A stretch of 64,000 nucleotides of DNA. Source: an uncultured Flavobacteriales bacterium. Lineage in GTDB: Bacteria; Bacteroidota; Bacteroidia; Flavobacteriales_D; Parvicellaceae. The position numbers and the translations under genes are program-made. Where the stretch lies: contig CALSRM010000001.1 of the NCBI GenBank assembly GCA_943788755.1, forward strand, positions 434,001 through 498,000. Direction: 5' to 3'. Positions 361 to 50,292 of this stretch are shown here, piece after piece (the stretch's first letter is position 1; the number at the start of each line of letters is the position of its first letter). Under the pieces are notes generated by a model that was not told where the DNA came from, ran no database searches, and saw only the letters and a program-made list of their open reading frames with translations.

Positions 361-2997
361 ATGATGGAAATACCTAAAATATACGAAGCAGGAAGAGCAG
401 AACAGAAATGGTACAAATACTGGGTTGATAATGGATATTTTAAATCAACCCCAGATGATAGAGAGCCTTATACTGTTGTTATTCCACCTCCAAATGTAAC
501 AGGTGTGTTGCACATGGGACACATGTTGAACAATACTATTCAAGACATATTAGTGAGAAGAGCTCGTATGTTAGGTAAAAATGCTTGCTGGGTTGCAGGA
601 ACAGATCATGCTTCTATTGCAACTGAAGCAAAGGTAGTAGCTAAATTAAAATCCGAGGGAATTCAAAAAACAGACTTAAAGAGAGATGAGTTTTTGCAGC
701 ATGCTTGGGATTGGACAGAAAAACATGGTGGGATAATTCTAGAACAATTAAAAAAATTAGGAGCTTCTTGCGATTGGGATCGTACCCGATTTACAATGGA
801 TAAGGATTATTACGATAGTGTAATAAAAGTATTTTGTAATCTTCATGAAGAAGGGTATATCTACCGTGGTGTTAGAATGGTAAATTGGGATCCTTCAGCT
901 CAAACTGCATTGAGTGATGAAGAAGTAAATTACAAAGAGGTAAACTCAAAGTTGTATTACGTTCGTTATAAAATAGAAGGAACAGATGACGAGTGGTTAT
1001 CAATCGCTACAACGCGTCCTGAAACAATCTTAGGAGATACTGCAATTTGCATTAATCCAAATGATGAGAGATATTCACATTTAAAAGGAAAAAACGCAGT
1101 TGTTCCATTAGTTGGAAGGCAAGTGCCTATTATTTTTGATGAGTACGTTGACCCAGAATTTGGAACGGGTTGTCTGAAAATTACTCCTGCACATGATCCA
1201 AATGATTATGAATTAGGAAGTACGTATGATTTAGAGTCAATAGACATCTTAAATGATGATGGGACAATTAATGAGGATGTTGGGTTTTATGCTAACCAAG
1301 ATAGGTTTGAAGTTCGTAAGCAAATCGCTATTGACCTAGAGAACCAAGGTTATTTGGTTAAAACAGAAGATCATATTAATAAAATAGGATTTTCGGAAAG
1401 AACAAATGCCGTAATTGAACCTAAACTGTCTATGCAGTGGTTTTGCGCCATGGAAGACTTAGCTAAACCAGCTTTGGACAATGTAATGAACGATACTATT
1501 CAATTTCACCCAGAGAAGTTTAAAAATTCTTATCGCCACTGGATGGAAAACATTAAGGATTGGTGTATTTCTCGTCAATTATGGTGGGGACATCAAATTC
1601 CTGCATATTTCTATGGAAGAAAGAAAGATGATTTTGTTGTTGCAGAAACAATTGAAGAGGCTTTGGTTAAAGCAAGAGAGAAAACAGGAAATATTGATTT
1701 AAAACAAGGAGACTTGCGTCAAGATGATGATGTGATGGATACTTGGTTTTCTTCTTGGTTATGGCCAATATCAGTATTTAATGGGTTTAAAGAAGGTAAT
1801 GACAACAAGGACTTAGATTATTATTATCCAACCAATGATTTAGTTACAGCTCCAGAGATTATGTTCTTTTGGGTGGCAAGAATGATTATTTCAGGTTATA
1901 AATACAAAGGAGATCTTCCTTTTAAAAATGTTTATTTCACGGGTATTGTTAGGGATAAGTTAGGGCGCAAAATGTCAAAGTCCCTTGGTAATAGTCCAGA
2001 TCCATTGGATTTAATTGATAAGTATGGTGCTGATGGCGTAAGAGTTGGAATGTTATTGAGTTCTCCTGCAGGAAATGATTTGCCTTTCGATAGCTCCCAA
2101 TGTGAACAAGGACGTAATTTTTCAAACAAGATATGGAACGCATTTCGTTTGGTTAATAGCTGGGATGTTCAAGATATCAAACAGCCCAATTACGCTGCTA
2201 AAGGTATTGAATGGTTTAAAAGTAAGTTCAATAAGACTTTATCTGAAATCAACGATTCTTACGATAAATTTAGAATTTCAGAAGCGTTAATGAGTACGTA
2301 TAAATTAGTTTGGGATGATTTCTGTTCTTGGTATTTAGAAATAGTAAAACCTCCTTATCAGCAACCTATTGATGCGATTACGTATAAAGAAACACTTTCA
2401 ATATTTGAGTCGTTACTAAAAGTTATGCATCCATTTACTCCATTTATTTCTGAGGAGATTTGGCATTTAATTGGAGATAAAAAAGACGAAGATTGTATTA
2501 TGGTGGCTGAATGGCCTACATTAGGAGATGTTGACGAAGATTTATTATCCAACTTTATTCTTGCTGAAGAGGTAATTACGAATATTCGAAATATCCGAAA
2601 AGAAAAGAACATTGCAAATAAAGTTGCTTTGGACTTAATAGTAATTGACAATGAAAAAGCGAATCGATCATTTGATCCAATAATTTCTAAAATAAGTAAT
2701 CTTTCTAGTTTGGAATATGTTGATCACAAAGTGGATAATGCCTTTTCTTTTGTCCTGAAATCAAATGAATATTTTGTCCCGTTTAATGAAGATATTGATG
2801 TAAAAGCAGAGATTGAAAAAATAGAGCAGGAATTGAAGTATACCAAAGGTTTTTTAATCAGTGTTTCAAAAAAGCTGAGCAATGAACGATTTGTTAGTAA
2901 TGCTCCAGAAAAGGTTGTAGCTATTGAGAAAAAGAAAATGGCAGATGCAGAAGCAAAGGTTAAAATACTCGAAGAGAAGTTGAATACTTTTGCTTAA
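361..2997 (+). CDS. valS: valine--tRNA ligase
   Basis: Class I aminoacyl-tRNA synthetase that charges tRNA-Val with valine in the cytoplasm. The 878 residues are a normal length. The HIGH-type motif is in [13 protein letters not shown] (about residues 42-54) and the KMSKS loop is RKMSKSLGN (KMSKS at 537-541). The editing (CP1) domain lies between them, including [12 protein letters not shown]. The C-terminus carries the coiled-coil arm typical of ValRS (about 810-878). Two Met codons open the frame; either could be used. The stop overlaps the convergent gene at 2994 by 4 bp. No defects are seen. Confidence 0.97.
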
Positions 2998-3416
2998 ACA
3001 ACTTGATTTTTTAAAAGATGTAATTTGTTTTGTTCATTTAGCCATAGGGTAGCTTCAATTTCGTTTTTGAAAAATTGAACAGGATAGGGAACTTTATTTA
3101 TTTTAAAGTAAAATTTAGATAGTAACCTTTGTGAAAGTGATTCAATAATTAATCCAATTGCTATTGTGTTGGAATTATCTTCTTGAATGCTAACTTTTCG
3201 AGCTTCTGTCGTAATTGATCCATAAAGACCAGGGATTGATAAAATACACCTTTGCTCCCCTTTGTATAATGATTTTATAGCATCAATAAACTCTTGCATT
3301 ACCTCCTCTGTAATTTCATAGGAGTCTTCTCTAGCAAATCGTTGCTCAATAATTCCGTCACTCCTCAATGAAAATGTACAGAAGTCTAGTTCTATGGATT
3401 CTATTATTGTCGCCAT
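2994..3416 (-). CDS. SpoIIAA/STAS-like small protein (DUF7793-type), function unknown
   Basis: A 140-residue soluble protein without a signal peptide or membrane segment. The layout (N-terminal strands, a helix around [14 protein letters not shown], a central SIPGLYG strand-loop, then a helix with [22 protein letters not shown] and EATLWL) resembles small Bacteroidota STAS/SpoIIAA-like proteins often annotated as DUF7793 or hypothetical. No catalytic motif is visible, so no activity is proposed. It converges on valS with a 4-bp overlap of stop regions and is monocistronic. The family call is by resemblance and is moderate. Confidence 0.65.
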
Positions 3417-48749: not shown

Positions 48750-49144
48750 GGGGCCGACCTTGGATTTGACAGCGAGAGTATCGGTTTTGTAAGCATGTCG
48801 AGATGTGTGAGTTGGCTCGTAAAAACTAATTCTCATCCAATTTAATTGGAAATAACAACTACGCACTTGCTGCATAGTCACTTGATGTGACTCTGCTTAA
48901 TCGAGCTACTAGGTAGCCGACAAGTACCCTGGTTATAACTACCCGTTTATCGGTTATAACTATATGGGTTCGTTGGTATAAACTAGCATTAATAGCGTCT
49001 TGATATTAATGCGAAACTAAAAAGGCTAAGCTATAAATTGGGTGTTCGCTTCCGGTTTATTGTCGAAAATTAATAGTGAAATAAACATGTAGAAAGCACT
49101 ACTTGAACCTTGTTTGGACGAGGGTTCGAAACCCTCCGGCTCCA
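48750..49144 (+). ncRNA. ssrA: transfer-messenger RNA (tmRNA)
   Basis: tmRNA rescues ribosomes stalled on broken mRNAs and tags the product for proteolysis. The 5' end GGGGCCGACCTTGGATTTGAC and the 3' end GGGTTCGAAACCCTCCGGCTCC-A form the tRNA-Ala-like acceptor and T arm (GGGGCCG pairs with CGGCTCC). The tag frame starts at GGA 48848 and encodes GNNNYALAA followed by TAG (48875-48877), the hydrophobic ALAA end expected for ClpXP targets. Pseudoknot-forming sequences follow. Length is 395 nt. CCA is not encoded (CTC follows the discriminator A). The gene is intact, and its 3' end is duplicated downstream. Confidence 0.96.
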
Positions 49145-49155
49145 CTCTGATAAAA
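49129..49155 (+). repeat. direct repeat copy 1, overlapping the ssrA 3' end (possible att site)
   Basis: 27 nt starting AAACCCTCCGGCTCC and ending TCTGATAAAA. It covers the 3' half of the T arm, the acceptor strand and 11 nt beyond ssrA. An exact copy lies at 49294-49320. Confidence 0.75.
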
Positions 49156-49183
49156 TGCTGCTCCTTTTGGAGTGGCATTTTTT
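49156..49183 (+). terminator. terminator of ssrA
   Basis: TGCTGCTCC pairs with GGAGTGGCA (9 bp including two G-T pairs, loop TTTT), followed by six T. Confidence 0.8.
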
Positions 49184-49253
49184 GTTCTGGGCAATGAGAA
49201 CTTGTTCTCTAATTGGGCTGAACAAAAAATGACAAATGAACGAAGTGAAGCAG

Positions 49254-49302
49254 CGTTTTATCCACTGCACGTTAGTCTATGGGTTCATGAAATAAACCCT
49301 CC
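49254..49302 (+). repeat. diverged repeat unit A downstream of ssrA
   Basis: 49 nt running from CGTTTTATCC through GCACGTTAGTCTATGG to AAACCCTCC. About 80% matches the unit at 49419-49468; its end overlaps the exact 27-nt repeat at 49294. Confidence 0.6.
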
Positions 49303-49320
49303 GGCTCCACTCTGATAAAA
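49294..49320 (+). repeat. direct repeat copy 2 of the ssrA 3' end
   Basis: Exact copy of 49129-49155, 165 bp downstream. Here the upstream T-arm half is replaced by GGGTTCATGAAAT, so no second functional tmRNA end is formed. Confidence 0.75.
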
Positions 49321-49352
49321 GCGTTTACCTGAAAAGGTGACGCTTTTTTTTT
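49321..49352 (+). terminator. second terminator-like hairpin downstream of ssrA
   Basis: GCGTTTACCT and AGGTGACGC form a stem with one bulge and a GAAA loop, followed by nine T. It follows repeat copy 2 exactly as the ssrA terminator follows copy 1, although the two hairpin sequences differ. Confidence 0.65.
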
Positions 49353-49418
49353 GTTAAGGAAATAAGCATGCTTATTTGAGTTAACTAAAGATAGTGTCGA
49401 TTTCGAGAATCGAAATAA

Positions 49419-49468
49419 CGTTTTTACCCATTGCACGATAGTCTATGGTTTCATAAAACAAACCCTCC
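49419..49468 (+). repeat. diverged repeat unit B downstream of ssrA
   Basis: 50 nt from CGTTTTTACC through GCACGATAGTCTATGG to AAACCCTCC, partner of 49254-49302. After the CTCC it continues ATTCCTCCC and no longer matches ssrA. The rest of 49183-49542 has small dyads (GAGAAC-TT-GTTCTC; TCGATTTCGAGAATCGA) and no gene. Confidence 0.55.
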
Positions 49469-49542
49469 ATTCCTCCCAATGGGTAAGGGGGAATTTTTGA
49501 TGAATTTGACTCGCTTTACTTTTTTATAGCCGTCGCAAAACC

Positions 49543-50292
49543 TTATATATAGCCCATAGCTTGGTAAGTGTAGTAACCAATTATTTCATGTAATAATATG
49601 CGCCATTTGTAGAGATAAGCTGATTGTGGTTGTATATACTCTTCGATGGATATGGTTTTTTGTTTTAGATTTTTCAAATAGGGATCAACGTGTAAATTAT
49701 TTTTTTTGAAACATGCTATAGCTCTTCTGTAGTGAAAATCCGAGGTAATTAATAGACAACTAGGTGTAGATTTATGATTTACTGAAAGTAATTCAGCTGT
49801 ATAAGCAGCATTTTGGTAGGTGTTTTGAGATTTGGTCTCACAAATAATATCAGTTTCAGGAATTCCAATTTTCACTAGATATGCTTTCAAAAATTTGGCT
49901 TCAATCATTTCGGATTGAAGACTTCCTGAAGCACCCGTAATGATAATTTTATTTATGACACTGTCTTGATATAATTTTACTGTATACAACAATCGATCTG
50001 AACTTTCACCAAATTTAATATCTTCTTCAGTAGAATTGAGGCTTATCATTCCTCCCAAAAGAATTCCATAATCGTATTTTTTCTTTAGCTTAAGGGGGGT
50101 TACTCCCCATTGATTAAAAGCAGTTTGATAGATAAATCCATTCGAGAAGAACAACAATAAAACAAAGGATATAAGAAGATATCTTCGTCTTCTATATTTT
50201 GTTCTTACAAACAATCCAAGAATAAAAAAGGCAGTAACAAATACCAAAGGATCTGCAATAAAGGCTACTATTTTGGATAAGATAAAAAACAA
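49543..50292 (-). CDS. YdcF/ElyC-type membrane protein (DUF218)
   Basis: A 249-residue protein with two N-terminal membrane segments (LSKIVAFIADPLVFVTAFFILGL and YLLISFVLLLFFSNGF in part) and a DUF218 domain. The domain shows YGILLGGMISL, DRLLYTVKLYQDSVINKIIITG, the ETKSQNTYQNAAYTAELL motif and LLITSDFHYRRAIACFKK. E. coli relatives ElyC and SanA affect envelope integrity; the reaction is not established. The start is TTG at 50292, because a stop lies two codons upstream and no internal Met fits. It reads toward ssrA. Confidence 0.85.
   Translation of the reverse strand: MFFILSKIVAFIADPLVFVTAFFILGLFVRTKYRRRRYLLISFVLLLFFSNGFIYQTAFNQWGVTPLKLKKKYDYGILLGGMISLNSTEEDIKFGESSDRLLYTVKLYQDSVINKIIITGASGSLQSEMIEAKFLKAYLVKIGIPETDIICETKSQNTYQNAAYTAELLSVNHKSTPSCLLITSDFHYRRAIACFKKNNLHVDPYLKNLKQKTISIEEYIQPQSAYLYKWRILLHEIIGYYTYQAMGYI

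Follow-up and report, generated by a model that had tools for sequence, protein, structure and literature searches.

A probable two-unit TLR-like array behind the tmRNA gene of an uncultured Flavobacteriales bacterium

In the genome of an uncultured Flavobacteriales bacterium (assembly GCA_943788755.1), the segment directly behind the tmRNA gene ssrA, positions 49145-49475 of the window (the whole stretch of 64,000 nucleotides analyzed here), is most probably an array of two units resembling tRNA-linked repeats (TLRs). By analogy with the E. coli TLR RrB, as presented in an excerpt of PMC8144298, such units would be expressed and processed into RNA. Arrays of this kind may grow and shrink via recombination between the 3'-end copies that they contain, and occasional copying might carry single units to further tRNA-like genes or elsewhere in the genome. 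The locus and its relatives add a second phylum with TLR-like units, a tmRNA gene as host, congeners whose arrays differ in entire units, and two tRNA genes with units 98% identical to each other. These observations offer comparative material for asking whether the units move and what in them is conserved, and they caution against taking every short duplication of a tRNA or tmRNA gene end for an att site.

The first description of TLRs, in E. coli, dates from 1978 (Egan and Landy 1978, Rudd 1999, as cited in the excerpt of PMC8144298). According to the same excerpt, E. coli K-12 has 22 TLR units at ten loci, with 18-19 bp identical to the upstream gene end; the loci follow tRNA or rRNA genes and hold one to five units each, and RrA, RrB and RrF, located behind 5S rRNA, have been reported to undergo read-through transcription and processing. 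The excerpted text of this 2021 paper gives no known function for TLRs apart from the three studied and records that an early function claim for the tyrT unit was withdrawn. RtT RNAs have been detected on Northern blots in Actinobacillus (excerpt of PMC4986893), and a 175-bp VNTR is situated at the rtT RNA of Salmonella (excerpt of PMC2658671). The TLRs on record come from E. coli and related bacteria; in the open-licence literature, no description of TLRs in Bacteroidota or at tmRNA was found, and tmRNA is not named as a TLR host in the excerpted portion of PMC8144298.

Layout and predicted RNA structure of the array

A preliminary description of this locus had reported an exact 27-nt duplication of the ssrA 3' end with copies 165 bp apart, and a repeat search confirmed it: the two copies of AAACCCTCCGGCTCCACTCTGATAAAA are 100% identical at a spacing of 165 (Table 1). 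The assignment of the 27-mer to the last part of ssrA also holds, while its extension beyond the gene, previously given as 11 nt, comes to 10 nt, the other 17 nt being the last of ssrA with the ARAGORN end at 49145. A 47-nt direct repeat (87% identity) had been overlooked; it places a third, decayed copy of the ssrA end at the 166-nt step, so that the structure is an array. The units follow a common plan, in which a terminator, a T-run hairpin and a closing stem are succeeded by a ATCCACTGCACG-like motif (ATCCACTGCACGTTAG between the closing stem and the ssrA-end copy in unit 1) and by a repeat of the 3' part of ssrA that starts at the T-loop border. No open reading frame that overlaps the array exceeds 66 codons, and no recombinase is encoded across the units. 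An Rfam scan of the window returned tmRNA as the sole family above threshold, with chance-level matches besides it on the array, and a search of the same genome revealed no dispersed copies of the window unit elsewhere at E below 0.01.

Table 1. Features of the ssrA locus and its array (window coordinates)
Feature	Position	Strand	Support
ssrA (tmRNA), tag GNNNYALAA	48750-49145	+	ARAGORN; Rfam RF00023, 150 bits
27-mer copy 1: ssrA 3' end from T-loop border (AAACCCTCCGGCTCCAC) and start of unit 1	49129-49155	+	
Unit 1, 165 nt: from base after CCA to end of second ssrA-end copy	49145-49309	+	
Closing stem P1, 5' strand GATAAAATGCTGCT, predicted to pair with 49249-49262	49149-49162	+	0/300 shuffles
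Unit 1 intrinsic-terminator-like hairpin and T-run	49152-49183	+	Terminator scan
Hairpin P2, 5' strand TTTTTTGTTC, overlapping terminator T-run, predicted to pair with 49220-49229	49178-49187	+	1/300 shuffles
Hairpin P2, 3' strand GAACAAAAAA	49220-49229	+	P2 shuffle test
Closing stem P1, 3' strand AGCAGCGTTTTATC	49249-49262	+	P1 shuffle test
Unit 1 right end with ATCCACTGCACGTTAGTCTATGG motif; repeated at 49422-49468, 87%	49256-49302	+	
Possible short stem GGGTT/AACCC, 49281-49285 with 49295-49299 (start of ssrA-end copy)	49281-49299	+	Modest statistical support
27-mer copy 2, exact: ssrA 3' end and start of unit 2	49294-49320	+	
Unit 2, 166 nt: order of parts as in unit 1, middle sequence different	49310-49475	+	
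Unit 2 terminator-like hairpin and T-run	about 49318-49352	+	Centroid structure
Unit 2 second hairpin GTTAAGGAAATAAGCATGCTTATTTGAGTTAAC	49353-49385	+	Centroid and minimum-energy structures
Third copy of ssrA 3' end, decayed, AAACCCTCC only	49460-49468	+	

To the right of the array lies a DUF218 gene (49543-50292) whose counterparts in G002 and G003, 88% identical, are found elsewhere and beside a different neighbor, indicating a rearrangement near ssrA. Since the gene is located elsewhere in these two genomes, the array is not datable by synteny.

The hairpin and T-run noted earlier behind each copy were recovered, at 49152-49181 in unit 1 and in the centroid structure of unit 2. In the minimum-energy structure the terminator stretch of unit 2 is paired otherwise, and the terminator scan listed the unit 1 hairpin only. 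The predicted fold of unit 1 outperformed all 200 shuffled sequences (z -3.47), and that of 49294-49500, which includes unit 2, outperformed 199 of 200 (z -2.52). Because the strands of the closing stem overlap those of the terminator, these two structures would be mutually exclusive.

Dinucleotide shuffles were used to assess the two helices in 12 units chosen by eye from several species and behind several genes. The closing stem P1 was equaled in at most 7 of 300 shuffles in nine units and was not significant in the other three (L059, L061 and L115); for the T-run hairpin P2 the corresponding figure was at most 6 of 300 in eight units, with no significance in unit 2 of the window, the Arg unit, L059 and L157. 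The second hairpin of unit 2, which both predicted structures contain, was missed by the automatic P2 test (274/300 shuffles). When eight units were aligned and folded with RNAalifold, the consensus closing stem comprised 12 pairs, 7 of them changed on both sides. The ssrA units of G204 and G202 adopt a predicted four-way fold, with z values of -5.8 and -10.5, respectively. In a permutation analysis, the unit strand fitted the 3' end of its own host better than that of permuted hosts (10/5000 for 17 units, 115/5000 without E. coli, and 50/5000 without E. coli when one unit per distinct end was retained). A T-arm-like stem may accordingly be proposed, with modest support, to track the sequence of the host gene; the gene-end copy of G369 is out of step with its host ssrA at 2 mismatches.

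Distribution and turnover of the units

Units of the same kind occur behind tRNA genes. Of the 31 tRNA genes in the genome of the window that have 200 nt or more of downstream sequence, two were followed by a strict 3'-end copy, against none in the reversed control: tRNA-Met at 159 nt and tRNA-Arg(acg) at 181 nt, each matching without mismatch over 16 nt. Less strict scanning of 32 tRNA genes added tRNA-Trp, and decayed units were recognized by eye behind tRNA-Arg(tcg) and tRNA-Arg(tct). The unit counts in this genome are two at ssrA, two at tRNA-Met, one at Arg(acg) and one at Arg(tcg); no units were seen at the tRNA genes of four further stretches examined, nor downstream of 5S in the single rRNA operon examined. 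In G079, 3 of 27 tRNA genes gave matches, that of Glu being a neighboring tRNA gene, and two identical unit heads lie behind tRNA-Arg(tcg). One element type is common to the ssrA of the window and to the ssrA and tRNA-Arg(tct) genes of G079.

Within the same order, ssrA scored above the cut-off in 45 of 60 and 213 of 245 genomes (overlapping sets), and a subset of 147 loci was examined. Seven were dropped because the end of ssrA was not locatable (L116, L126, L133, L135, L152, L162 and L189). Among the remaining 140, nine have less than 250 nt downstream, including L114 with a copy at the contig end, which leaves 131 counted loci; one of these, L087, was placed by pattern at a doubtful position. 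Of the 131 loci, 16 repeat the final 14 nt of ssrA within 1500 nt when up to 2 mismatches are allowed, compared with 0/131 for the reversed-core control, and the other 115 have no such copy in this range. The nearest copy lies at 99-245 nt in 14 loci from five families (L134 has an additional match at 1345 nt), and the remaining two copies lie at 596 and 1175 nt. Identity is unbroken for 14-17 nt back to the T-loop border in 11 of the 14 short-range copies and interrupted by internal mismatches in L083, L134 and L063; L120 (245 nt) and L131 (192 nt) have the border alone in common. The motif GG..GAGAAG was present at 9 of 131 ssrA loci (reversed control 0), and ATYCCCTGCACGGGTTAG, with 2 mismatches allowed, was found at 16 places in 9 of 120 genomes, seven of these places being in the ssrA arrays examined. 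A contig search for exact ATCCACTGCACGTTAGTYT returned two records, apparently G079:C43 and G204:C14.

Outside the order, 60 of 151 genomes with ssrA were sampled, and a copy was detected at two of the 60 loci, convincing in G369 (L236) and weak in L271. The right end of the first L236 unit matches G073, a member of another order, exactly over 28 nt, while its ssrA-end copy is 2 nt off, and transfer between orders is possible.

The hairpin after the distal copy in G079 resembles the terminator directly behind ssrA in the same-genus genome G092. Reading this pair as a clean insertion between ssrA and its terminator was rejected, because the stretch after the copy heads a second G079 unit; as sequence evidence for insertion, the comparison is suggestive only. 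In at least eight draft genomes (G005, G030, G068, G083, G087, G160, G191 and G265), the ssrA end is within 3 nt of a contig end, and several tRNA genes of G079 are likewise at contig ends. Repeated gene ends may be part of the reason for the position of ssrA in those drafts, which would be expected if assemblies broke at such repeats.

The earlier suggestion that a discrete piece lies between the copies was borne out, and comparisons among close relatives reveal that such pieces come and go. Within the genome of the window, the bodies of tRNA-Arg(acg) and tRNA-Arg(tcg) are identical at 60 of 75 positions (80%) and their flanks are unrelated, and the units behind them are 98% identical over 170 nt. 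The end of the acg unit equals the 3' end of its own tRNA, and that of the tcg unit has decayed to AATCCTGC; the latter may also match its own tRNA, a reading for which only one or two bases are decisive. Comparison with G003 at the locus of Arg(tcg) gave 245/293 identical positions in the upstream flank, 58/77 in the tRNA and 122/180 in the unit. With the flank conserved and both tRNA and unit diverged, a joint exchange of gene and unit is possible. Behind tRNA-Met, the genome of the window carries units alpha and beta, G003 only alpha and G002 only beta, a pattern that simple deletion between repeats in a two-unit ancestor would explain.

Units without an ARAGORN tRNA in the examined stretch were found in G001 (L226), G002 (L228) and G003 (L227), and near 106.5 kb on C2 of the genome of the window. 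Those of G002 and G003 (3-kb stretches) end in AATCCTTCCGAGGTCAC or a decayed form of it. In the C2 array, at about 2000-2500 of L336 (G000:C2:104500-108500), the ends match tRNA-Arg(acg) and tRNA-Met, and the 4 kb contain no tRNA. G001 and G003 apparently share one tRNA-less place, as judged by eye from the right flank, and G001 has one more whole unit there. Taken as sequence comparisons, these cases show change unit by unit, compatible with insertion, deletion or conversion.

Relation to known TLRs and to integrative elements

Like E. coli TLRs, the units are about 100-180 nt long, lie directly behind a stable-RNA gene, number from one to several per locus, and end in the 3' end of the upstream gene. 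The end copy in the window comprises 17 nt of the gene end (27 nt with the start of the next unit) and is decayed in unit 2 and at Arg(tcg), and units stand at several stable-RNA loci of this genome. The stretch of E. coli K-12 tyrTV examined contained four RtT (RF00391) matches; these units end in AAUCCUUCCCCCACCACCA, which is the tRNA-Tyr end from the T-loop border, as in the array described here, and this copy closes a 10-bp stem (GGGGAAGGAU/AUCCUUCCCC). By eye, several type B units also resemble RtT around the host-end stem, whose 5' strand is followed by GAGAAG and whose 3' strand is preceded by GUA. When 14 loci were searched with the RF00391 model, none gave a match at an E value of 0.5 or below, so the likeness to E. 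coli TLRs that can be shown is one of layout. Further differences from E. coli TLRs are the occurrence in Bacteroidota, the inclusion of tmRNA among the hosts, a unit that opens with a terminator hairpin, and the architecture of closing stem and T-run hairpin. With integrative elements that use ssrA as attB (such as the islands treated in an excerpt of PMC3146451), the array shares the kind of target and the presence of a second gene-end copy at its far side; unlike them, it has no recombinase and no open reading frame above 66 codons, its copy lacks the T-loop, and its unit type is shared with tRNA genes.

The ssrA 3' end does serve as a docking site for such elements in this family, as had been anticipated, and the comparison of relatives provides examples. 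G003, a genome of the same genus, matches the ssrA region at 98% identity as far as the gene end, where a large gene for a serine recombinase (Resolvase, Recombinase and Zn-ribbon domains) follows directly. The stretch at 2660-12368 of L058 (G003:C6:131000-143618) holds this gene and, behind it and nearly to the contig end, open reading frames that by eye resemble a type II-C cas9 in broken form and other cas genes; it is possibly a CRISPR-Cas-bearing element integrated at ssrA. In the family member G018, a gene for a tyrosine recombinase (Phage_integrase, SAM-like and Arm domains; 2043-3263 of L066, G018:C3:25625-40000) starts about 140 nt behind ssrA, and the sequence behind ssrA in L012 and L015 starts similarly to this stretch. 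The repeats of the ssrA end at 596 and 1175 nt belong to G029 (L067, about 1885-2490) and G035 (L068, about 1885-3070), respectively, where each enclosed stretch contains a single main open reading frame and the frames listed include no recombinase; these stretches are possibly non-autonomous integrative elements.

Such elements in relatives speak for the explanation first offered for the window, according to which an integrative element entered the ssrA 3' end, left the direct repeat as an att scar, and was then lost or shrunk to 165 bp. We nevertheless consider this very unlikely. The T-loop sequence GGTTC is present in both copies that border the gene-bearing elements of G029 and G035 and absent from 14 of 14 short-range copies (the recombinase elements of G003 and G018, whose far borders were not found, were outside this comparison), and the short units have a conserved layout with helices changed on both sides, an RNA-like architecture that is common to other families and recurs behind several tRNA genes. 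Moreover, the suspected distal att site farther away did not materialize, as a genome search that allowed up to 3 mismatches (3.17 Mb, 5 contigs, 97% complete; reversed-pattern control 0) returned the two known copies of the 27-mer and no other, and none of the four PF00589 matches that answer to the proposed tyrosine recombinase lies beside the array: they are on C3, or on C1 at a distance of nearly 300 kb or more. Simple duplication of the ssrA trailer by slippage or unequal exchange is judged highly improbable. Local duplication does occur, as indicated by identical sequence after both copies in L161 (50 nt), L182 (59 nt) and L119 (36 nt) and by the paired unit heads of G079. As a sole cause it is unlikely, because units 1 and 2 of the window agree at their ends and differ in their middles, and it is hard to reconcile with the same unit type behind unrelated genes or with nearly the same unit behind two tRNA-Arg genes whose flanks are unrelated.

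A more serious alternative, although one that we regard as doubtful, is that the units are non-autonomous mobile DNA: minimal elements moved in trans by a recombinase that recognizes the T-arm of tRNA-like genes, any RNA being incidental. The 98% identical unit at two unlinked tRNA-Arg genes, the units of G002 and G003 at places without a tRNA, and the extra whole unit of G001 relative to G003 at what by eye is the same place all favor mobility, but homologous recombination or conversion between repeats could also produce gain and loss. Recombination of attP with attB would bring in the core of the element itself, yet the ends of complete units agree with the host gene (ssrA, Met and Arg), and an unsystematic inspection of the loci examined met no recombinase-bearing element with unit ends. 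Helices that are doubly changed and still kept would, furthermore, be unnecessary for an element acting as DNA only. Beyond the two-unit TLR-like array preferred for the window, a broader proposal can be put forward rather speculatively, and we hold it to be unlikely as a whole: TLRs might represent one ancient, phylum-crossing kind of non-coding mobile unit of 100-190 nt, which would insert at the segment of tRNA-like genes from the T-loop to the 3' end, leave the gene intact, adopt the end of each new host, and form cassette-like arrays, some of them orphaned far from tRNA genes.
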